20,608 nt of DNA from a virus, in the IMG/VR virus record IMGVR_UViG_3300013772_000053, positions 1 to 20,608 of that record; one strand, written 5' to 3'. Each line of letters starts with the position of its first letter. The first letter of the stretch is position 1. The notes below the pieces were generated by a model. The model searched no databases. It worked only from the letters and a program-made list of their open reading frames with translations, and was not told where the DNA came from. The position numbers and the translations under genes are program-made. Shown here piece after piece: positions 2,795-20,608 of the stretch.

Positions 2795-3039
2795 GCGTCA
2801 CCGCCCCACATTGCCGCCTTCTGCTCGTCGGTCATCTTGGGGCCGTGGTGATAGAACCCGCGCTCATCGGTCCAGTGCTTATCGGTAATCTCGCAGTGCC
2901 GATCAGTGCCATGCTCGCCGCGACGGTGGGCCTCGAATGCGGTGAGGCCGATGAACGTCTCGCAGCATCCAGAGCAGTGACCGGCGGTTGATCCTCCGGG
3001 ATAGCTCTTGCCGCACTTGGGGTGAATGGGATTGCTCAT
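2791..3039 (-). CDS. FDXHR-type putative zinc-binding protein (82 aa)
   Basis: An 82-aa protein with HPKCGKSYPGG, HCSGCCETFIGLTAFEAHRRGEH and a C-terminal acidic stretch. The CxGC...TAFxAHRRG signature is that of the FDXHR family of small phage zinc proteins; here the name motif reads FEAHR. A good ribosome site (AGGAGG) precedes ATG 3039. Molecular function is not established for the family. Confidence 0.82.
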   Translation of the reverse strand: MSNPIHPKCGKSYPGGSTAGHCSGCCETFIGLTAFEAHRRGEHGTDRHCEITDKHWTDERGFYHHGPKMTDEQKAAMWGGDA

Positions 3040-3521
3040 GAGTCCTCCTGGTCAATATGTCCACGGCTGCCGAGTAGCAGCGCGGTGAGTTCGTCCACGG
3101 TCATGAGCACGAACTGTTGCCCCGGCTTGGTGGTGCCGCGTCGTTTGGCGATGACGAGCCCGGCGAGCGCGTCGTCGTTCCCACGTTCCGTTTCGGCTTC
3201 CCCGATCCATTGGCCCGGCATGAGTCGGCCGCCATAGTCCTTGGCTTCAATCACTACGCGTCCGCCCATGTGCCGCAGCCCTCCAATGTCGCCGCGGTCC
3301 TGTGAGCCGGTTTTCACGCGACGGTCTATGCGGTCATCAACGACGGCGGCTAGGTGGTCCGCTATCAGTCGCTCGAAACTGGATCCAGCCTTCTTTGCTG
3401 ATACACGGGAACGCTTGGGAACGCGCTTGCTAAGCGCCTCGCTTGTCACTCCCGGCACTTCCACCCCTCCAGCCCCTTCTGTCGCGTCTATGCCGTCTGC
3501 AAACTCGTGTGAGCGGGTCAT
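3036..3521 (-). CDS. PD-(D/E)XK nuclease, Holliday-junction-resolvase-like
   Basis: A 161-aa protein with a basic N-terminal tail (KRVPKRSRVSAKKAG). It then has SSFERLIADHL (E50), QDRGDIGGL (D78) and VVIEAKDYGG (E92-x-K94), the E...D...ExK catalytic set of a PD-(D/E)XK nuclease. Its size and order resemble small archaeal/phage Hjc-like resolvases. A phage with its own replication genes often carries one to resolve branched DNA before packaging. It lies downstream of DnaB and overlaps its neighbours by ATGA at both ends. Specific activity cannot be told from the sequence. Confidence 0.75.
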   Translation of the reverse strand: MTRSHEFADGIDATEGAGGVEVPGVTSEALSKRVPKRSRVSAKKAGSSFERLIADHLAAVVDDRIDRRVKTGSQDRGDIGGLRHMGGRVVIEAKDYGGRLMPGQWIGEAETERGNDDALAGLVIAKRRGTTKPGQQFVLMTVDELTALLLGSRGHIDQEDS

Positions 3522-3724: not shown

Positions 3725-3879
3725 GCGTCCTCCTTTGGGCATACAGAAGCCCCAGCGCTAACCGGGGCTTCGTGTCGATCCATGTCGTCAAGCACTTTCT
3801 CAAGGACCCTCTTGCCCATGGGTGTTATGTCGTCGGGGTAGATGAACCTGAGTGCGGCCCGGATTCGTTCGGTTCTCAT
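3721..3879 (-). CDS. Small unknown protein between dnaB and its downstream paralogue (52 aa)
   Basis: The frame runs from ATG 3879, overlapping the dnaB stop as ATGA, to TGA 3721, overlapping the next GTG start as GTGA, with no internal stop. The protein begins MRTERIRAALRFIYPDD and continues KRVLEKVLDDMDRHE; it looks helical and is not a known family. The exact junctions at both ends argue for translational coupling. A hairpin (3746-3771) is embedded in its 3' part. Confidence 0.72.
   Translation of the reverse strand: MRTERIRAALRFIYPDDITPMGKRVLEKVLDDMDRHEAPVSAGASVCPKEDA
3746..3771 (-). other. Intragenic hairpin GAAGCCCC/GGGGCTTC
   Basis: An 8-bp perfect stem with a 10-base loop inside the 3' end of the 52-aa gene, about 20 bases before the next gene's start. 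There is no U-run. It shares the GAAGCCCC stem with the hairpin at 772-804. It could tune expression after dnaB or be incidental. Confidence 0.4.
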
Positions 3880-5180
3880 GCGGCCTGCCTTAGCGCGTTT
3901 TGCGGTGTCGTGCCTTGGTCGAGGGCCTTCGAGTAGTGGCCCCAGAAGGTGAGTTGAGCGAGTCCTGTTGCGCCATGCCGATTCTTAGCAACGAGCATTG
4001 ACAGGTCGTTGCGCAGGTCGCCCATGATTTCGCGGTGCAGCAGGATGACAACGTCGGCGTCTTGTTCGACGGCGCCGGACTCGCGGAGGTCTGACAGCAT
4101 CGGCATCTTGTCGTTCCTGGACTCACTGGCCCGGTTGAGCTGCGAGAGTGCGATGACAGGTATCTGCATGTCCATTGCCATGATTTTGAGCTGCCTGGAC
4201 ATGTCCGCAACGAACTCATGCCGTGGCCGCTTGTCTCCGTGCGGTTGGGCCATGAGTTGCAGGTAGTCCACGACGAGGCCGGCCAACGGTTTGCGGCGGT
4301 TGACTGATCGGGCGAAGCGTTTGATGTCGGTTATGGTCACGCCGGATCGGTCATCCACGTAGAGCGGCACGTCGCCCCATGCTGCGCGGCGGTCCCGGAT
4401 CTTTGCCCAGTCGCCGGGGGTTAGGTTCCGTTCGATCAGCCTTGACACGTCGAGGTTGAGGTCTGCGGAGACTGCCCGGATCTGGACGTCGTTGTTGGAC
4501 ATTTCCAGCGACGAGAACGCCACTGATCCACGTTGCGCGAGTCCTTGCGCCAGGTTCAGAGCCACCACGGACTTACCCACTGAGGGACGTGCGCCGACGA
4601 CGTACAGCGCGCCCGGCCTGAGTCCGCCGATGATCGCATTGACCGCGGCCCATGGTGTCGGGTGGTGGTTGATTTCCTCATCCAACGTCCCGAGCATCGT
4701 GTCGATGGTTTCGCCGAATGACAGGACTGCTGATCCGGTAGCGCGTGAGGTCTGGTCAACCTCGCGCCGTGCCGCTTCGACAAGTTCATCAACGTCGCCG
4801 CCGCTGCCTGCGAGCTCCTGGATCTTCCTGCCCGCGCCCGTCAGCCGCCGCCTCGTGGCCGCGTGGGCGACTATCTCGGCGTAGTAGGCACCGGCACTAG
4901 CGGACGGGACTGATAGCGCCAGTTCGTGAGCGTATGCCGCGCCACCGATCCGGGATATCTCGCCCATGTTTGTTAGCGCGTCGTTGATGGTGATCGCGTC
5001 CACCGGCTTACCCGCGCCGTGAACCTCCAGGATCGTCCGGTAGATGGTCTCGTGTGCGGGCTGGTAGAAGTCGCCGCCGTCAAGAATGTCCGCGATGTCC
5101 GCTATGGCGTCCCGGCTGATGAGCATTGCGCCAAGGACGGATTGCTCGGCTACTGCGTCGTGGGTTTGTGGTTCGGTCAT
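3876..5180 (-). CDS. dnaB: Replicative DNA helicase, DnaB family
   Basis: A 434-aa hexameric 5'-3' helicase for phage DNA replication. The N-terminal DnaB domain (about 5-105, EQSVLGAMLIS) is followed by a linker and the RecA-like ATPase: Walker A GARPSVGKS at 196-204, catalytic Glu in SSLEM (E226), Walker B LVVDYLQLM at 302-310, SQLNR at 346-350, and DLRESGAVEQDADVVILLHR at 364-383. Length is close to bacterial DnaB. It lies downstream of the initiator gene, the order seen in many temperate phages (initiator then helicase). One copy of a small paralogous gene sits on each side. ATG 5180 overlaps the upstream stop. Confidence 0.96.
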   Translation of the reverse strand: MTEPQTHDAVAEQSVLGAMLISRDAIADIADILDGGDFYQPAHETIYRTILEVHGAGKPVDAITINDALTNMGEISRIGGAAYAHELALSVPSASAGAYYAEIVAHAATRRRLTGAGRKIQELAGSGGDVDELVEAARREVDQTSRATGSAVLSFGETIDTMLGTLDEEINHHPTPWAAVNAIIGGLRPGALYVVGARPSVGKSVVALNLAQGLAQRGSVAFSSLEMSNNDVQIRAVSADLNLDVSRLIERNLTPGDWAKIRDRRAAWGDVPLYVDDRSGVTITDIKRFARSVNRRKPLAGLVVDYLQLMAQPHGDKRPRHEFVADMSRQLKIMAMDMQIPVIALSQLNRASESRNDKMPMLSDLRESGAVEQDADVVILLHREIMGDLRNDLSMLVAKNRHGATGLAQLTFWGHYSKALDQGTTPQNALRQAA

Positions 5181-5377
5181 GGCTTCCTCGCGAGATCGCG
5201 GGCGGCGTCAGCGTGGCCGATCATCTGGCGCACTACCCGAATCAACTCTTTGCCGTAGACGGTGTATCCGTGAGTAGCTAGAGCATCAACGGCTCCGCGT
5301 ACCGTCTTGGCAGCCTCTTCATGCAAGTCGGCTGATGCTAGCAATGCTTCACGCTGGGCTTGGTTTAGTTCGCTCAT
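5177..5377 (-). CDS. Small helical protein, paralogue of the gene at 3518-3724 (66 aa)
   Basis: A 66-aa protein starting MSELNQAQREALLASAD. The first 17 residues are identical to the copy after dnaB, and nucleotide identity across the first 50 bases is visibly high. The middle has diverged (VRGAVDALATHGYTVYGKEL against INATCDRLATAGYTIYAKAL). ATG 5377 overlaps the stop of the initiator gene (ATGA). Function unknown; position between initiator and helicase makes a replication-accessory role worth testing. Confidence 0.75.
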   Translation of the reverse strand: MSELNQAQREALLASADLHEEAAKTVRGAVDALATHGYTVYGKELIRVVRQMIGHADAARDLARKP

Positions 5378-6129
5378 TTGTAGAAGTCCTTATTCCATGG
5401 GCTTGAGGCGGCGGGTTTGGTTATTGATGGTTTGGCTTTTTTTAGCCATGTAGTGAATGCGGCATTCCAGGAGACGCATAGTCTTCCGTGCGTAGCGGCG
5501 TGGAGCCTAAAGAATTCGGCTTGCTCAATGACATCCACTCCCTGCTGCTTTGCTCTTTCGATATGCGATGCAGTGGGCGCCCAGCTTTTGGGCAAGGGCC
5601 CCTCTCTCGTCCCTGCGTCTTCATCATCGGGAACGGCAAAGAGAGATGTCTCTGTCTCTGTCTCTGTCTCTGTCTCTGTCTCTGTCTCTGTCTTAGCTAG
5701 CGTTGTGCTAGAGCATTCGTCTAGCACGTGCTTAGCAGGTGCTTCCGTTTTGCTAGGCTCTTGCTTGGCTTTTGCTAGGCCACCCTTGCGCCCAGCCTCA
5801 CGTTTCCGCTCAATGTCGGCGGTTGTGGTCTGATGTTCAGCGAAGTCGTGGATCATCCAGCCGCCGTCGATGGGGATCCACGAGGGCCGGTCCGCGTCGT
5901 TTGAGGACAGTTCGGCAGCGACATCGGCGCCCCATTTGCGCTTCACTACGCGCTCATCCAGGAACCCGTCAGTGAGTTGGCGGCGTGAGTAGAGGGTTGA
6001 TTCAAAGAGGGCCCGGAATGCGGCATCGGACAAGAACATAATTTTCGTGTGCTCATCCATGCCAATATCGAATTTCGCGTAAAGGCGCCGATCTTTCCGC
6101 GTGGTGCTATCCGGGATAGAATCTCCCAT
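5374..6129 (-). CDS. Phage replication initiator / helicase-loading type protein
   Basis: A 251-aa protein of the phage replication-initiator class. The N-terminal about 100 residues (RRLYAKFDIGMDEHTKIMFLSDAAFRALFE...GGWMIHDFAEHQ) look like a winged-helix DNA-binding domain. A basic linker and an acidic Thr-Glu repeat follow. The C-terminal module (about 190-240, ending WNAAFTTWLKKAK) resembles DnaT-like helicase-recruiting domains. The start at 6129 is chosen because AAGGAG lies about seven bases upstream; the upstream ATG at 6144 has no such site, and the AAGGAG falls inside that extension. Its gene carries two repeat arrays (see 5647 and 5729). The role is inferred from architecture and its neighbour dnaB. 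Confidence 0.78.
   Translation of the reverse strand: MGDSIPDSTTRKDRRLYAKFDIGMDEHTKIMFLSDAAFRALFESTLYSRRQLTDGFLDERVVKRKWGADVAAELSSNDADRPSWIPIDGGWMIHDFAEHQTTTADIERKREAGRKGGLAKAKQEPSKTEAPAKHVLDECSSTTLAKTETETETETETETETSLFAVPDDEDAGTREGPLPKSWAPTASHIERAKQQGVDVIEQAEFFRLHAATHGRLCVSWNAAFTTWLKKAKPSITKPAASSPWNKDFYK
5647..5693. repeat. Hexanucleotide tandem repeat, about 7.8 units of TGTCTC
   Basis: Seven perfect TGTCTC units and one partial one (TGTCT, cut short by a final T where the seventh unit has C). On the coding strand this is GAGACA, encoding Glu-Thr pairs in the linker of the initiator. Because the unit is six bases, slippage would lengthen or shorten the linker by dipeptides without a frameshift. 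Confidence 0.97.
5729..5783. repeat. Five 11-bp phased iteron-like repeats (origin candidate)
   Basis: TGCT begins at 5729, 5740, 5751, 5762 and 5773, an exact 11-bp period. The last three units read TGCTAGGCTCT, TGCTTGGCTTT and TGCTAGGCCAC. An 11-base period is out of register with codons, so the pattern is not a protein repeat. It lies inside the initiator gene, as lambda ori lies inside gene O. Origin function is inference. Confidence 0.6.
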
Positions 6130-6150
6130 AGCTGACTCCTTCATCTTTAG

Positions 6151-7672: not shown

Positions 7673-8134
7673 CTAAAAAGCAGGCTCGCCGGGTGCACCA
7701 CTAGGACCATTCCCCCATGCGGCCGGCGGCGTACCGGGCTGACTGCCGCCCCAGCTCTGTGCCGCTGTTGGCTGCTGCTGGCGGCCCTGCTGCGACGGTG
7801 CTCCAGCCTTGGGAATCAGCGCGATGTGCTTGGGTTTGATTTCCGCAGAGAAGCCCTTGGTGCCGTCCTTCTTCTCGTAGGTGCGAAAGCCAGCGGTGCC
7901 GATGACAAGCACCTTTGTACCCTTCAGGAGATGTTCAGCGAGGGCTTCAGCCTTCGCTTCCCACTCGGTCACGCGCCACCAGGTTGTTTCCCCGGCGTCC
8001 TCCCACTGGTTCGTCTGCTGGTTCAGGCGCCGCGGAGTGTCGCCAACGGAGAATTCCAGCTTGGCCTTACCGTTCGGCGTGAAGGTCAATTCCGAATCGG
8101 ACCCAAGATTCCCGCTCAGGGTGATGTCTGCCAT
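7673..8134 (-). CDS. ssb: Single-stranded DNA-binding protein
   Basis: A 153-aa SSB. The OB-fold domain spans about 1-108: ITLSGNLGSDSELTFTPNGKAKLEFSVGDTPR, ETTWWRVTEWEAKAEALAEHL, KGTKVLVIGTAGFRTYEKKDG. A Gln/Gly/Pro-rich tail follows. The usual acidic C-terminal tip (DDDIPF-like) is replaced by GEPAF, so binding to host proteins that recognise that tip may be weak or absent. It coats ssDNA during phage replication and recombination, in keeping with the exonuclease upstream. The start ATG 8134 lies two bases after the previous stop. Confidence 0.93.
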   Translation of the reverse strand: MADITLSGNLGSDSELTFTPNGKAKLEFSVGDTPRRLNQQTNQWEDAGETTWWRVTEWEAKAEALAEHLLKGTKVLVIGTAGFRTYEKKDGTKGFSAEIKPKHIALIPKAGAPSQQGRQQQPTAAQSWGGSQPGTPPAAWGNGPSGAPGEPAF

Positions 8135-8547: not shown

Positions 8548-8732
8548 TTGCTTTCCTTTGCTGCGATGGTTTCGAGCACCGAGATCCACTGCTTGGCGGT
8601 CTCGGGCGTAATCGTGATATACGTCGCGCCGCCGTGCATTTTGAGCATGTGGCCGAGCGTTCCGATCGGGTTGCGTGCCAGGGTGAGTGGACCGGCGACG
8701 ATTGACACTGAGGGGTAATAGTCCGGGTTCAT
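8544..8732 (-). CDS. Unknown small protein (62 aa)
   Basis: A 62-aa protein starting MNPDYYPSVSIVAGPL, with a mixed strand/helix pattern ending AKQWISVLETIAAKESK. Both ends overlap neighbours as ATGA. No family recognised; no Cys motif, signal or membrane segment. Confidence 0.7.
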   Translation of the reverse strand: MNPDYYPSVSIVAGPLTLARNPIGTLGHMLKMHGGATYITITPETAKQWISVLETIAAKESK

Positions 8733-9157
8733 GCGGTGGGCTCCGTGAACTTGTATGCAGGCAGGGGCGCGAGTTCGACGGGCCGGAACACGTACCAGAG
8801 TTCGTCTTTGTCGACGCCGTCTTCCCAGTCGTATTTGCTCGGGAATCCGTGATCGTCGCCGTTGTGCTCGATCATTGCCTCGCCGTATTTGCCGCCGCCC
8901 TGCCAGAACGCGAAGCCGAACAGCTTGCCGTCAGCCTTGCGCCGGATAACCCGCATGAGGGTGGATCCTTGATAGAGGTCGCCGTCCGTATGCCACTCGG
9001 AATCCGAACCGTTCTTCACCAGTTCATAGGCCGCTTTAAACTCGGCCTTCTGTTCGTCGGCAGCATCCCCGTAGTCGAAGGAATCCCAGGCAATGTCATG
9101 GCCGAGTTCGTCGCGGAATGCGATCTTGTCGGGCTGGTCGATGATGTAGCGGCTCAT
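8729..9157 (-). CDS. Unknown acidic protein (142 aa)
   Basis: A 142-aa acidic protein starting MSRYIIDQPDKIAFRDELGHDIAWDSF, rich in Asp, Gly and Trp/Phe (GFAFWQGGGKYGEAMIEHNGDDHGFPSKYDWEDG). It is soluble with no recognised domain. The start overlaps the stop of the 182-aa recombination-linked gene (ATGA). An anti-host or accessory replication protein is possible, without evidence. Confidence 0.72.
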   Translation of the reverse strand: MSRYIIDQPDKIAFRDELGHDIAWDSFDYGDAADEQKAEFKAAYELVKNGSDSEWHTDGDLYQGSTLMRVIRRKADGKLFGFAFWQGGGKYGEAMIEHNGDDHGFPSKYDWEDGVDKDELWYVFRPVELAPLPAYKFTEPTA

Positions 9158-9702
9158 GCCGTCCGCTCCTTCACGTAATCCACGATGAACTCCGGTGCGT
9201 TCTGCTCCCGGAGCCAGGCCAGGTAGTCCGCTGTGGTGCCGTTCGTGATGGCCTTCTGCGTGTTGGCGATTACGTCGGCGGGGATCTCGTTGGTTGCCTG
9301 CTTGGGCGCGGCGTCGGGGAGGGGTTGGACGGTGTAGGTCCGCTTCTTCCCGCGAGTCTCGGTGAGCAGGAGCGTTACCGGCTTGTCGATGTGCGAAACG
9401 GCTTCTACCTCAATGCCGCCAACCGCTTTCCCGCCGTAACGAATAGTCGGGTTGCCGGCCAGTTTTATTCGGCGCCCGACCCAAGCGTCCATCTCAGTGC
9501 CCCACGCCGCTGCGATTGCTCGCCTCATGCTCAGGGATGGCTTATAAGGGCGGTCGGGGTACTCTGCTACCTCGATGCGCATTGGCTGTTCCTTGTTACC
9601 GGTCAGTATGCCCGCCGTGACCGTTAGGATCTTCGGGCCCGTGACGTAGTCGTCATAGTTTTGTTGGTCGCTCTTTGGTGCGAGCGTTTCACTCATGTCC
9701 AT
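9154..9702 (-). CDS. Conserved phage protein paired with the exonuclease (182 aa)
   Basis: A 182-aa protein. Residues 20-125 (TGPKILTVTAGI...EQPMRIEVAEYPDRPYKPSLSMRRAIAAAWGTEMDAWVGRRIKLAGNPTIRYGGKAVGGIEVEAVSHIDKP) are a pattern common in actinophages immediately beside a Cas4/RecE-like exonuclease. The C-terminal about 40 residues form a separate helical tail. The start follows the exonuclease TAA directly. By position it is a candidate for the ssDNA-annealing or loading partner of the exonuclease, but no known annealase motif is visible. It could also be an independent DNA-binding protein. Confidence 0.78.
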   Translation of the reverse strand: MDMSETLAPKSDQQNYDDYVTGPKILTVTAGILTGNKEQPMRIEVAEYPDRPYKPSLSMRRAIAAAWGTEMDAWVGRRIKLAGNPTIRYGGKAVGGIEVEAVSHIDKPVTLLLTETRGKKRTYTVQPLPDAAPKQATNEIPADVIANTQKAITNGTTADYLAWLREQNAPEFIVDYVKERTA

Positions 9703-10527
9703 TTAGGAAAACTCCGGTTCCTGGTTGATGCCGAGCAATTCCTCGGCGCGGTAGATCGCCCACATGGGCAGGCTGATGAGGTCGGCGTTCGGGTAGCCGG
9801 GCCAGGTGTTGGATTCGACGCATTCCCGGTAGATCCGCTTTGCCCGGTCGTTCAACTGCCGCCCGATGTTGATTGCCTCGATGTCCAGTTCGACCACGGA
9901 CACGAGGTAGGGCTCAGTTTTTTCAACCAGGACGAAATGGAATGGCAACTCTTCGCCTGTCGCCGCCTTGACGCCGTCGATGTAGTGAGCGGCTGACTGG
10001 TGATAGCCGAACTCCGCCGCCGTCTTGCCGAACTCGTTAGGGTCGGCGCTGCGGGTCGTTTTGAGGTCGATCAGCGCGTAAGGCTGTCCTGCATCCGGGC
10101 GGCACTTGAGCATCAGCCCATCCTCTTCCCAGAAAACGGATGCCTCTGCGCGGTGGCCGGTGAACGCGGCGCGTGCGAGCGGGTGGCGCATAACCGATTC
10201 GCGCATGTTGACCACCTGCGTCCACTCCTTTAGTAGTAGCGGCTGCCTGCCAGATGCCAGCGCTTCCGCATTGGCTTCCTTTGCCGCCTTGGTGAGCCAG
10301 TTGTCGGCATCGACAATCTCAATACCGGATGCGTCATCTTCCAGGATCAGCGAGTGGGCCGCGGTGCCCAGCGTGAAGGCGTCCGAGAACTTCGGGTGCG
10401 TCTTGTCGTGCTGGTAGTGTGCCGGCGTCCGCGTGGCGAGCGTCTTGAGCGACGTGCTGCCCAGCGCCTCGTCGCGGTGATAGTCGGCATTCGAGATGCC
10501 GGAGTAGATTCCTGGTGCAAAGCTCAT
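9703..10527 (-). CDS. RecE/Cas4-like PD-(D/E)XK exonuclease
   Basis: A 274-aa exonuclease of the PDDEXK/exodeoxyribonuclease VIII-like class, commonly annotated Cas4-family exonuclease in actinophages. Ordered motifs: GTAAH at about 54-58, CRPDAG (D about 145), LIDLKTT (D154-x-K156) and QSAAHY (about 177-182). It would digest dsDNA ends to give 3' ssDNA for phage recombination, working with the SSB and perhaps the 182-aa neighbour. The start at 10527 is chosen for GGGGAG about six bases upstream; the longer frame has no such site. It lacks the four-Cys iron-sulfur cluster of true Cas4. Confidence 0.88.
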   Translation of the reverse strand: MSFAPGIYSGISNADYHRDEALGSTSLKTLATRTPAHYQHDKTHPKFSDAFTLGTAAHSLILEDDASGIEIVDADNWLTKAAKEANAEALASGRQPLLLKEWTQVVNMRESVMRHPLARAAFTGHRAEASVFWEEDGLMLKCRPDAGQPYALIDLKTTRSADPNEFGKTAAEFGYHQSAAHYIDGVKAATGEELPFHFVLVEKTEPYLVSVVELDIEAINIGRQLNDRAKRIYRECVESNTWPGYPNADLISLPMWAIYRAEELLGINQEPEFS

Positions 10528-10555
10528 TGTTTCTCCCCATAAAAAATGGACCCTC

Positions 10556-10702
10556 TCAGGTCCGTTGGTTTGTTCCGTGTTCACGGCAGTCCGGGTTTGT
10601 GGGTCTTATGTGGCGAGGCGTGTATCTCCATGGTGGACAGCTACAGCCGGGTTGTTTGTTATTACCTCGCGACCAGTTCTCTTTGGCTTGATCGTGGTCC
10701 AT
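10556..10702 (-). CDS. Small Cys/Pro-rich protein (48 aa)
   Basis: ATG 10702 to TGA 10556, with AAAGGAG about seven bases upstream. The protein starts MDHDQAKENW and contains CSCPPWRYTPRH and NPDCREHG, a possible C-x-C...C-x2-H metal site. Similar short CSCPPW/NPDC proteins recur in actinophages. Function unknown. It precedes the exonuclease gene. Confidence 0.72.
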   Translation of the reverse strand: MDHDQAKENWSRGNNKQPGCSCPPWRYTPRHIRPTNPDCREHGTNQRT

Positions 10703-16199: not shown

Positions 16200-16472
16200 A
16201 TGGCCGTGCCATCAGGGAAAATGCAGGAGTCGGGGCCTTTTGCGCGGGCGATATCGGCAGAGATACGCGCAACGCTCGCCCGCCAGCGACTAACAGTCAA
16301 AGGCCTGGCGGGCATGTCAGGCCTGTCCGAAAGCTACCTAGGCAAAAGATTGCGCGACGTCGCGCCCCTGACACTCAATGACGTAGAGGCGATCTGCGAT
16401 GCGCTCGGGGAGAATCTATTGGCGTTCGCTGCGGCCGCACTGGAAGCCGCCCGCGATTCGGACCAGTCATGA
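16200..16472 (+). CDS. Second XRE-family regulator, coupled to integrase
   Basis: A 90-aa XRE protein: ARAISAEIRATLARQRLTVKGLAGMSGLSESYLGKRLRDVAPLTLNDVEAICDALGENLLAFAAAALEAARDSDQS, with the HTH at about 30-65. The stop overlaps the integrase ATG as ATGA, so the two are co-translated. The ATG at 16200 has only a weak AGG upstream; an in-frame ATG at 16221 with AGGGAAA close by is the alternative. A likely role is control of integrase or a repressor partner. An XRE gene directly fused in translation to int is a recurring actinophage layout. Confidence 0.8.
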   Translation: MAVPSGKMQESGPFARAISAEIRATLARQRLTVKGLAGMSGLSESYLGKRLRDVAPLTLNDVEAICDALGENLLAFAAAALEAARDSDQS

Positions 16473-17602
16473 GAGGCCGCGCCCCGCTCCCGATCGGCAC
16501 GAGTGGGCAGGTTTCATACTCAGGGCCGAAGGGTAAGATTACCGCCCTTACCCGCTTCCGGGATTTCGACGGGGTTACGCGTCGGGTATCCGCGCAGGGT
16601 ACGTCCAAGGCGGCTGCTGATGCTGCGTTAAAGGAGAAGCTGAAGGCGCGGACCCACCTGGGCGGGCTGGAACTCACGCGGGATTCAACGATCAAAGAGC
16701 TTTCGGAGCGCTGGCTGCCGACACTTACCCAGTCGCAGGCCACGCAGGACTCATACCGGCAGAAGGTCGAGCGGTACATCATCCCCGGCATGGGCGCGTG
16801 GAGGCTCTGGGAGGCCACTACAGGCCGGTGTGAGGCGTTCCTGACAACGCTACAGGCGTCGGCTCCGGCGATGGCTTCACAGAGCCGCGTAGTCCTATCG
16901 CTCATGCTCGGACTGGCGGTGCGTTACGACATCATCGACACTAATCCGGTGCGTGAAGTGATGATGCACGCAAAGGCGAAGAAGCACGTGTCAGCGCTCA
17001 CTGTTGAAGAGGTCCAAGAGTTGCGCCGGCACATTGCCCAATGGGCGAGCGAGAAGGCGGGCAGGGCGGCCACGCTTGACGCTATGGACATGTTCCTGGC
17101 TACCGGGCTGCGGCCGGGGGAGTTGCTGGCGTTGCAGTTCTCTGATGTGGATTTCCGGGCGGGCACTATCACCGTGACGGGGACGGTCAAGCGGGATTCT
17201 GCGAAGGGCCTGCACCGGCAGGCGTTCCCCAAGTCGGAGTCCGGTAAGCGAGTGCTGACACTGCCGCTGTTCGGGGTAGAGCTGTTGCGGCACCGGAAGT
17301 CCAGCGTTGACGGGGATCTCGTCTTCCCGAACCGCAACGGTGATGCGATGGAGCCGGCGAACTTCCGCAGGCTGTGGCGTGAGGCCCGCGGCGATACGTG
17401 GGATGCCGTCAAGCCCTCATCATTCCGTAAGGCCGTGGCGACACTCATTGAGCGGGAGAGCGGTTCACTTATCGCTTCCCGGCAGCTTGGTCACAGCTCG
17501 GACACGATCACGAAGAAGCACTACATTGAGCGGAACCGGAACGCACCTGACTCGTCGCTAATTCTGGAGCAGTTGAACCAGCGAGTCACGCTGGTCCAAT
17601 AA
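16469..17602 (+). CDS. int: Phage integrase, tyrosine recombinase
   Basis: A 377-aa tyrosine recombinase that inserts and excises the phage at attP. The N-terminal arm-binding domain (about 1-65) is followed by a core-binding SAM-like domain (about 75-160) and the catalytic domain. Catalytic residues: R215 in TGLRPGELLAL, K255 in FPKSESGKR, R320 in SSFRK, H342 in LGHSS and nucleophile Y352 in HYIERN. The first His of the canonical HxxR box is replaced by Ser (S317), a substitution tolerated in many actinobacterial phage integrases. It starts by overlap with the XRE gene and ends 27 bases before the first arm-type repeat. Confidence 0.95.
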   Translation: MRGRAPLPIGTSGQVSYSGPKGKITALTRFRDFDGVTRRVSAQGTSKAAADAALKEKLKARTHLGGLELTRDSTIKELSERWLPTLTQSQATQDSYRQKVERYIIPGMGAWRLWEATTGRCEAFLTTLQASAPAMASQSRVVLSLMLGLAVRYDIIDTNPVREVMMHAKAKKHVSALTVEEVQELRRHIAQWASEKAGRAATLDAMDMFLATGLRPGELLALQFSDVDFRAGTITVTGTVKRDSAKGLHRQAFPKSESGKRVLTLPLFGVELLRHRKSSVDGDLVFPNRNGDAMEPANFRRLWREARGDTWDAVKPSSFRKAVATLIERESGSLIASRQLGHSSDTITKKHYIERNRNAPDSSLILEQLNQRVTLVQ

Positions 17603-18355: not shown

Positions 18356-18505
18356 ATGGGGATTGAAATTCAGATAGCTATCGTGTCCGCTCTCGTGCTG
18401 CTCTCACTGGTCGGGATTGTGATCCGCGTCCGGTGGGAGAAACGCAACGGCGTTGAGCCTTCCGAGGGTTCCGCTGTTGGTGGTTGGTTCGGCCCCAACC
18501 GTTAG
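18356..18505 (+). CDS. Small single-span membrane protein beside attP (49 aa)
   Basis: MGIEIQIAIVSALVLLSLVGIVIRVRWEKRNGVEPSEG... ends FGPNR. Residues 4-23 form one hydrophobic helix, followed by a basic RVRWEKR stretch, predicting N-out/C-in. The gene runs against the tail gene and overlaps its stop by three bases (TAA/TAG). It is separated from both int and the tail gene by terminators and has its own -10 box, so it may be expressed in the lysogen. Such lone membrane genes next to attP are candidates for lysogenic conversion or superinfection exclusion; no homology is claimed. Confidence 0.65.
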   Translation: MGIEIQIAIVSALVLLSLVGIVIRVRWEKRNGVEPSEGSAVGGWFGPNR

Positions 18506-20608
18506 GCCTTGCTGTAGATCAGCTTCGTTCCGAGTAGTCGAACATCCCCTATTGAGGTGTCGAGGCCGTGTGTCGCGGTACGGGTCAGGTGCAGTTCCAA
18601 ACGCTTCGCCGTGCCGTCTGCCATTACCGTTGGGAAGTTCACCCTGCTGGTAATGGTGGTGTTCGCTACGCCTGGCACTGTCGGTGTGATTGCGACATCG
18701 ACCGAGGCCGTGCTGAGCACGGTGCCGGACGGGCTGAGGACTGACAGCCGCCCAAGCCACCGGACATTCCCGGTGATGGCGACGGGCGACGCCCAGGTGA
18801 TATCGAATCCGACTGCAGTTCCGGTGAAGGCGTCCAGTGGGAAGTTTACGGGCTGGTAGTACACGCCCGTGTCCGCGCCCGTTTCCGGGAGGGTGTATCC
18901 GAAGCGGCTGTCCGCGATAGTGGCTGCCACATCAGACAGTCCGACGGAAAGGTCAACACCACCCGAGGCCGGGATGGCCGGGGTGGTAGAGGTCATTGCT
19001 CCCAACACGTCACTCATGATACGACATGCGATGCCCGATGAGTTGATGTAGTCCACAACGGTGGTGAAGTCCGCTGTCGGGTAGTTGTACGCATCGCCCG
19101 TGGTGGCTATGCCGTGGGTTAGGATGACCAACCATTCCTTATTGGCGATGGCCCGATCAATCGCTGCCGTGATCGTGGCTGGCGCGACTCCGTTGTTGAG
19201 TTGGACGCATCGGATGCGCATAGGGTCGGCCGGTGGCAGCGTCTCGGAGCGGAAGTCCGTGGTTGAGTAGGCGAGTCGGGAAGCGGACTGGTACTTTTTC
19301 ACAGTGTCAATCACGGTGGGGCTGAACTGCCCACCAGGGTACGCCCCAACGTCGGAGCCCCGGAAACCGTTGACCTTCAGGAACGCCCGCATTTGTGCAA
19401 GCCGCGAATCAAGGTAGTCCGCTGCCTGCCCCACAAACGAGGTGTTGTGGTCTGCCACGGACATTGAGTGCGCGGAGATTTCCCAGCCGTGTTTGTCTTC
19501 AAGTTCCTTGTGCTGCGCGAGTGTCATGTAGCTGGTGCCGCCCCACGCTTCGGGGATGGTGAACGCCGTGCCGGGGAACCCGTAATTGTCCATGATCGGA
19601 CGGGCCACGAGGTACTGGGAGTCTTTGCTGTCGTCAAAGGTGAGCGAGACGACGCCCTTAGCGAAGGACTGGTCAGCGGCCACAACATCAACACCACCGA
19701 CGCGGACGGTTGCCTGCTGGCCGGAGACACCCTTGACGCGGATCTGTAGGTTGGTTATGGCGGCACGGTCGGGCGTGCCAGTCAACGTGGCGTCGGACCA
19801 TGGAAGCGTAATGCCAGCCCAGTCGCCGGATCGGAGCCAGCGCGTATCCGGTGACGGTATGGTGTTGGCAACAGTCCACAGCCAATACGCGGCGAGTCCG
19901 GGGGTGCCGGCGTAGACGATGATCTGTCCCAGCTTCGCCATGTCGTCAACCTTGAACCAGATGCGCAGAGACCCGGCGCGGCTGTCCAGCGACAGCCCGG
20001 ACTTGGTCAGGTCGGCGGACCCTGCTGCGGCGTCGGAGACAACCTTGATCGACTGTGACCCGAACACAAAGTCGGTGGTGTCATTCAGGTTGCTTGACCC
20101 ATCGGCCCCGGCGAGTGCCCAGCCGTGGCCGGGTTGAACCGTAGCTGTTTTCTTGGGCTGCGGGCGTGGTATCCGGCGAGGGGTTACGTAGGACTGACTG
20201 GCATACGTCGGACTAAAATTCCAGTTCGCTGCGGTGAAGCTCGCGCCTGACGTGTGGTTAGCAATAGCCGATACAACGTCACCGCCGGGGCTGAGTACCT
20301 TGTCGCCTACGAGGTACGCCGTGGTGGCTTTCCACTTAGGGACAAAGGTGGCATTTAGTGCCGTGTCTTGGAGCCGCGTGGGCAGCCGTGCGTCGGCCAA
20401 GGTCCCGGCTGTCATCAGGGACGCGTCCGTGGTTGCCGGACCCGCCGGACCTTCAGGACCGGCCACGGTGGACGCTGGGCCGGGGATGGGGGTGGTGGTG
20501 GTCAGGACGAACACCTGAGTCCCGGACTTGAACGCGCACTGTGTTCGGTCCGCGAGCGTGAAGTCCGGGAACATCGCGTTCGCGTCAGAAATCAGCGTCG
20601 TCGTGACC
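18502..20608 (-). CDS. Tail receptor-binding protein with NodB polysaccharide deacetylase domain (partial)
   Basis: At least 690 aa, the frame still open at the window edge (VTTTLISDANAM precedes the internal ATG at 20574, which lacks a ribosome site), so the true start probably lies outside. Counting from that Met: a short collagen-like stretch GPEGPAG (39-46); a CBM5/12-like module at about 80-121 (WKATTAYLVGDKV...HTSG...FTAANWNF); a linker/jelly-roll-like region; then a CE4/NodB deacetylase at about 305-525 with TFDDS (D314, D315), HSMSVADH (369-376), GAYPGG (410-415) and ILTHG (484-488). It ends with a beta-rich domain. It likely de-acetylates host surface glycan during adsorption. Confidence 0.87.
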   Translation of the reverse strand, partial: VTTTLISDANAMFPDFTLADRTQCAFKSGTQVFVLTTTTPIPGPASTVAGPEGPAGPATTDASLMTAGTLADARLPTRLQDTALNATFVPKWKATTAYLVGDKVLSPGGDVVSAIANHTSGASFTAANWNFSPTYASQSYVTPRRIPRPQPKKTATVQPGHGWALAGADGSSNLNDTTDFVFGSQSIKVVSDAAAGSADLTKSGLSLDSRAGSLRIWFKVDDMAKLGQIIVYAGTPGLAAYWLWTVANTIPSPDTRWLRSGDWAGITLPWSDATLTGTPDRAAITNLQIRVKGVSGQQATVRVGGVDVVAADQSFAKGVVSLTFDDSKDSQYLVARPIMDNYGFPGTAFTIPEAWGGTSYMTLAQHKELEDKHGWEISAHSMSVADHNTSFVGQAADYLDSRLAQMRAFLKVNGFRGSDVGAYPGGQFSPTVIDTVKKYQSASRLAYSTTDFRSETLPPADPMRIRCVQLNNGVAPATITAAIDRAIANKEWLVILTHGIATTGDAYNYPTADFTTVVDYINSSGIACRIMSDVLGAMTSTTPAIPASGGVDLSVGLSDVAATIADSRFGYTLPETGADTGVYYQPVNFPLDAFTGTAVGFDITWASPVAITGNVRWLGRLSVLSPSGTVLSTASVDVAITPTVPGVANTTITSRVNFPTVMADGTAKRLELHLTRTATHGLDTSIGDVRLLGTKLIYSKA

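Follow-up and report, generated by a model that had tools for sequence, protein, structure and literature searches.

In a 20.6-kb virus fragment from IMG/VR (20,608 nt, hereafter the window), a RecE-type exonuclease gene and the gene of a 182-amino acid (aa) partner directly behind it probably form a phage two-component exonuclease/annealing recombinase, in which a predicted OB core of the partner would replace RecT functionally. This reading builds on the pairing of the two genes, on the replacement of RecT by the partner at one and the same slot, on a C-terminal tail shared with annealases, and on an OB-like structural model. The operon of the pair also encodes a replication initiator, a DnaB helicase and a RusA-like resolvase, and the features considered here are as follows:

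9703-10584, minus strand: RecE-type exonuclease (DUF3799, PD-(D/E)XK), from Pfam, PHROG and 3h4r matches
9154-9702, minus strand: 182-aa partner (phrog_11517), an ORF with a PHROG match at E 1.5e-51
9319-9702, minus strand: predicted OB-like core, residues 1-128 of the partner (111-sequence core alignment and AlphaFold core model)
9157-9318, minus strand: three-helix C-terminal tail, residues 129-182 of the partner, before the stop codon at 9154-9156
8729-9157, minus strand: 142-aa ORF that lies between the genes of the partner and of SSB and overlaps the stop codon of the partner
7673-8134, minus strand: single-strand DNA-binding protein, SSB (PF00436, E 3.5e-18; phrog_44, E 1.7e-29)
5374-6144, minus strand: replication initiation protein (phrog_3926, E 1.3e-15)
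3876-5180, minus strand: DnaB-type replicative helicase (DnaB_C, E 1.8e-71)
3036-3521, minus strand: RusA-like Holliday junction resolvase (phrog_244, E 3.8e-27), in the same operon direction as the pair
16469-17602: integrase, on the other side of the window from the operon
18502-20574, minus strand: 690-aa protein that opens with a collagen-like GPEGPAGP stretch and contains a polysaccharide deacetylase domain (PF01522)

As described in the initial annotation of this DNA, the partner begins at the exonuclease stop (junction TAA|ATG, the start lying on the next base without any gap), and the SSB gene is the fourth after it, with three small genes between them in the ORF list. The 142-aa ORF at 8729-9157 has no confident family in PHROG or Pfam profile searches. 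The exonuclease had been labelled RecE/Cas4-like, and only the first half of this label is retained: the protein matches PF12684/DUF3799 (E 2e-26, 93.5 bits for a cut-off of 26), the PHROG exonuclease VIII family (E 2e-92) and the solved E. coli RecE nuclease 3h4r (E 3e-20), while Cas4 is the wrong family and reflects a naming habit. The H, D, D and K columns of the PD-(D/E)XK site are invariant in the exonuclease alignment, and these residues are present in the alignment with 3h4r. The ORF at 9703-10584 opens with a GTG and encodes 293 aa; an internal ATG at 10527, the end used earlier, gives a 274-aa protein (MSFAPGIY...) and, judging by relatives, is the likely true start.

The partner belongs to phrog_11517, a family of unknown function in PHROG, whose profile matches 24 of 24 diverse family members, while searches of these with Pfam and NCBIfam return chance-level matches only; in the phage records examined, the family is annotated as hypothetical. 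The claim that the 182-aa protein is conserved holds on a large scale: relatives occur in 187 INPHARED phage records (tblastn), with Vibrio, Arthrobacter, Gordonia, Rhodococcus, Aeromonas, Pseudoalteromonas, Salmonella, Synechococcus, Microbacterium and Mycobacterium as hosts, in at least 584 IMG/VR stretches (profile search), and in 86 bacterial genome stretches, mostly of actinobacteria and alphaproteobacteria. Invariant or nearly invariant positions of the 111-sequence core alignment are SDQ...N..D, P55, R61, W67-G68, G95-G96 and S103.

An exonuclease lies directly upstream of the partner, on the same strand, in all 182 partner loci having readable upstream DNA, so that the arrangement by which a two-component recombinase is recognised, an exonuclease gene adjoining the gene of a (here putative) strand-handling protein, is found in 182 of 182 cases. 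These loci come from a set of 185, at least nine of them fetched twice, the remaining three having at most 92 bases upstream. The upstream exonucleases are of two types, 119 YqaJ and 63 DUF3799 (separate profiles, zero ambiguous, the at least nine double fetches being counted), both confirmed by Pfam, and their stop codons often overlap the partner start codon. The co-occurrence of the pair, which the initial annotation had proposed to check, is thus constant across two exonuclease families, and the adjacency exceeds chance, as every relative locus with upstream sequence shows an exonuclease. RecT has also been reported paired with both DUF3799 and YqaJ exonucleases (PMC8093625). Of 23 loci, 11 (about half) show an SSB gene within the stretch that was read. 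We discarded the possibility that the partner is simply the phage's own SSB, since these loci encode a true SSB close by; the 182-aa protein and the 24 family members have no profile match to the bacterial SSB family PF00436.

Do these phages carry a known annealase in addition to the partner? In the 20.6-kb window, profiles of the RecT, Erf, Sak, Sak4, Rad52 and Gp2.5-type families detect none, in agreement with the earlier remark that no annealase is recognisable there. Among partner records, the window included, PF03837 RecT is found in none of 60, and Erf, Sak4, Rad52, Sak and phrog_561 RecT are absent across 44 of these 60. PF10991 (Gp2.5/Enc34) gives nothing over its cut-off in 44-46 records and no match among the 24 family members. 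No known annealase elsewhere in the genome, the finding that would have spoken against the proposed role, is therefore seen in 44-60 relative phage records; the positive-control records were detected for RecT and Erf, and the sensitivity of the annealase profiles is limited, since PF03837 missed the diverged RecT-like protein of Agueybana, which phrog_561 detected. The 182-aa protein has no core profile match to PF03837 or phrog_561 RecT.

The partner and RecT alternate at the same position. When loci are fetched solely by exonuclease similarity and classed by the gene after the exonuclease, relatives of the window exonuclease (n=30) are followed by the partner in 23 cases, by RecT in 4 and by neither in 3 (one of these loci being truncated), whereas relatives of the exonucleases of two RecT phages (n=33) are followed by RecT in 27 cases, by neither in 6 and by the partner in none. 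With trimmed seed-based profiles, partner and RecT occur together in none of these exonuclease-selected loci (30 + 33). Loci holding both were considered and rejected: with these profiles, a single locus, L128, gives an apparent double match, and this match is the shared tail described below. Annotated siblings with RecT in the slot are Agueybana, Jung, prophiGD53-3 and SPC32H. Alternation extends to another annealase module in Salmonella phage SEN22, where DNA blocks place the exonuclease and partner between P22-like flanks, at the position of abc2-abc1-erf-arf in P22.

The key evidence for the recombinase reading is that the tail of the partner is interchangeable with those of annealases in the same slot. 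Beyond residue 128, the tails of the family are variable and helical. A phmmer search of the loci selected by exonuclease finds these tails in 31 of 5510 other ORFs, and 30 of these 31 were scored as the gene directly after the exonuclease, the last (in L257) being the same after-exonuclease gene read from an over-extended ORF. The cores carried by the tail-matched proteins are RecT-like (L209, L211, L215, L250 and others), Sak4-like (L216, a weak assignment), or of the phrog_3657 type, a family without assigned function (L230, L256). The 171 distinct tails form 52 clusters, 5 of which include tails of other annealases or of phrog_3657 proteins, and tail type does not follow exonuclease type, the same type occurring with DUF3799 and YqaJ. 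In a whole-phage search, the window tail matches the C-terminus of Arthrobacter phage EvePickles gp67 (E 2e-9), which is a RecT by PHROG (E 8e-39); the alignment scores 140, where shuffled sequences average 29 (sd 5), whereas the window core aligns with the EvePickles RecT at chance level in the same kind of shuffle control. A comparison of the window tail with nine annealases gave no match. A second, independent case of a shared tail is the long partner of Mycobacterium gordonae (L128:2979-3825): its last 80 residues match the C-terminal end of the mycobacteriophage Jung RecT in a search with a single sequence (E 6e-11).

Proteins of phrog_3657, listed with unknown function, also occur directly after a RecE-type exonuclease and have tails in common with the partner family. 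Some records name them RecT or ssDNA-binding, and they may represent another uncharacterised annealase family. Their loci are:

L230, 1802-2974: phrog_3657 locus
L255, 4852-5709: phrog_3657 locus
L256, 4812-5754: phrog_3657 locus
L257, 4852-5718: phrog_3657 locus
L261, 1392-2504: phrog_3657 locus, Gordonia phage Mutzi gp54

The exchange can be followed at the DNA level between the Arthrobacter phages Seahorse and EvePickles. Their exonuclease genes align at 72% and the 153 bp coding for the tail at 85%. The DNA separating these two blocks does not match: in Seahorse it encodes the OB core, in EvePickles a small gene and the RecT core. Furthermore, phrog_11517 is absent from the complete EvePickles genome, and phrog_561 RecT from Seahorse. 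The two phages thus display a natural swap of the core between the exonuclease gene and the tail.

What kind of core is exchanged for that of RecT? The full partner, modelled by AlphaFold with 96 natural relatives, reaches a mean pLDDT of 94, and the core alone 88. The core model comprises strands 24-33, 41-45 and 48-53, a helix at 57-67, strands 78-84 and 96-102, and a terminal hairpin (109-116/119-127), a b1-b2-b3-helix-b4-b5 order that is the order of an OB-fold with an extra hairpin; the predicted tail helices are 142-154, 157-166 and 171-181. Matches of the model in the PDB are weak, with Foldseek E values of at least 0.09 and VIA Z scores of at most 5.0, and mostly of OB type (Trbp111, the MetRS C-domain, CsaA, SSB, RPA70N, a DNA ligase OB domain, BrxL, PrgE, eIF5A and ribosomal S4e); because of this weakness, the predicted OB assignment relies on the order of the strands and the type of fold among the matches listed. 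The comparison with RecT and Rad52 folds suggested in the initial annotation gives an OB-like strand order, with RecT and Rad52 absent among the weak Foldseek and VIA matches listed, an absence that alone is not proof. Sequence profiles of the partner have no match among solved structures. Conserved basic (K10, R51, K54, R61, R77, R117, K120) and aromatic residues (Y53, W67, W74, Y89, Y123) would fit ssDNA binding by the partner. Numerous OB proteins bind ssDNA but do not anneal it.

From these elements a mechanism can be proposed. The exonuclease would resect DNA ends, and the partner would handle the 3' single strand in RecT's usual role, coating it and annealing it to its complement. Within the partner, the predicted N-terminal OB-fold would most likely bind ssDNA and anneal the complement, and the exchangeable three-helix tail would most likely dock the protein to something that RecT proteins of related phages share. 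For this docking, SSB appears a better candidate than the exonuclease, since the same type of tail accompanies DUF3799 as well as YqaJ exonucleases; tail docking to the exonuclease is weakened, as tails do not follow exonuclease type. The shared tail would point to a shared docking partner, not to a shared activity. Since the partner occupies the position of RecT and has the tails of RecT proteins, the simplest interpretation is that it performs the function of RecT by means of a different core. The initial annotation had proposed a divergent annealing or loading factor: the recombination role is favoured by exonuclease pairing, alternation with RecT and the shared tail, but the protein is not recognisably a diverged RecT or Rad52, its core being OB-like in the model. 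We lean slightly towards a broader proposal, in which phrog_11517 would be a new annealing family with an OB core unrelated to RecT, Rad52 and Sak4, swapped between exonuclease gene and docking tail, the core annealing and the tail adapting the protein to the host or phage SSB.

Could the partner instead be a recombination mediator, that is, an OB protein that displaces SSB and loads the host RecA, in the manner of RecO or UvsY, or otherwise aids a host pathway? The predicted OB-like core and the presence of SSB near the partner in about half of the loci would suit such a role, and since the Redbeta tail is a three-helix bundle resembling lambda Orf, an SSB-binding mediator (PMC8303780), a tail joined to an OB core could be one as well. 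We nevertheless regard this, the main rival reading, as rather unlikely, as at the slot the partner stands in for RecT, for annealases of the Erf module and for Sak4-like ones instead of accompanying them, and pairs with exonucleases as RecT does, while known RecA loaders were not seen alternating with RecT in this way in the present loci.

An accessory subunit of the nuclease (a processivity or end-recognition factor, or an inhibitor) having no strand-handling function would also be expected to adjoin the exonuclease throughout, as the partner does, often with its start codon overlapping the exonuclease stop, but pairing with two different exonuclease families, together with a tail that is found on RecT and Sak4-like cores independently of exonuclease type, makes this quite improbable. 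The partner might finally be a RecT/Redbeta or Rad52 protein diverged past detection, given that slot, tail and exonuclease partners are all the same as for RecT. This is very hard to reconcile with the EvePickles comparison, where the core is at chance and the tail well above it, and fits poorly with the OB-like predicted strand order and the PDB matches listed, none of which is RecT or Rad52 (alone not a proof). An annealing recombinase with an OB core remains the preferred reading.

This arrangement can be compared with known systems. With RecE/RecT (the Rac prophage, or actinophages having DUF3799 and RecT), it shares the exonuclease family, the slot, the gene order, an SSB gene often lying downstream, and a tail that is that of some RecT proteins; in contrast, the partner core is OB-like in prediction, about 130 residues long, and has no sequence similarity to the RecT core. 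Lambda Red, with its YqaJ/lambda-exo-type exonuclease and Redbeta, likewise consists of two components, an exonuclease and a strand-handling protein, but no homology is found between the partner core and that of Redbeta. The small three-helix C-terminal domain of Redbeta binds lambda exonuclease and SSB, and is dispensable for DNA binding (PMC8303780); its likeness to the partner tail is one of helix number. OB-fold proteins already form one of the annealing-protein superfamilies, T7 Gp2.5/Enc34 SSB (PF10991), and Gp2.5 neighbourhoods are without ssb and pair with a DUF2800 nuclease and polA (PMC8093625). The partner differs from them in having no sequence match, in pairing with DUF3799 or YqaJ, and in the frequent presence of ssb.

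The family has very probably been flagged before. Kauffman et al. (2022; PMC8766483) noted two vibriophage protein clusters, mmseq 297 and mmseq 600, that are always adjacent to a recombinase-associated exonuclease, which in other cases neighbours a known annealase, and for that reason counted them as putative recombinases, family unknown. Cluster mmseq 297 very probably corresponds to the Vibrio members of phrog_11517, since these were found in that phage collection, their hosts agree, and their neighbours are annotated as exodeoxyribonuclease 8. The representative of mmseq 600, AUR82881.1, belongs to phrog_21613, a separate PHROG family whose profile weakly matches 6 of the 24 partner-family members, and which would thus be a remote relative of phrog_11517 and likely a further branch of the partner superfamily. 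It adjoins a YqaJ gene: in Vibrio phage 1.029.O (L226:5437-5943), it is encoded just upstream of the YqaJ exonuclease, in reversed gene order, and resembles the partner core weakly. As far as the available part of the 2022 account extends (PMC8766483), it comes without fold, shared tail or actinophage link, and no functional study, fold or tail analysis of phrog_11517 was found in the open-access literature.

If the proposed function is true, it would be assigned to a family now annotated as hypothetical. Recombineering is built on RecE/RecT and Red, and actinobacteria have a limited range of tools of this kind. The OB-core proteins would then offer a new candidate recombineering class for Arthrobacter, Gordonia, Rhodococcus, Mycobacterium and alphaproteobacteria, and the Seahorse/EvePickles swap, by separating the putative annealing core from the docking tail, bears on the host limits of annealing proteins.

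Elsewhere in the window, the replication initiation protein (5374-6144, minus strand) contains a run of Thr-Glu repeats (TETETETETETETE), and the 690-aa PF01522 protein at 18502-20574, which adjoins the integrase side of the phage, is possibly a tail-fibre or depolymerase-type protein.
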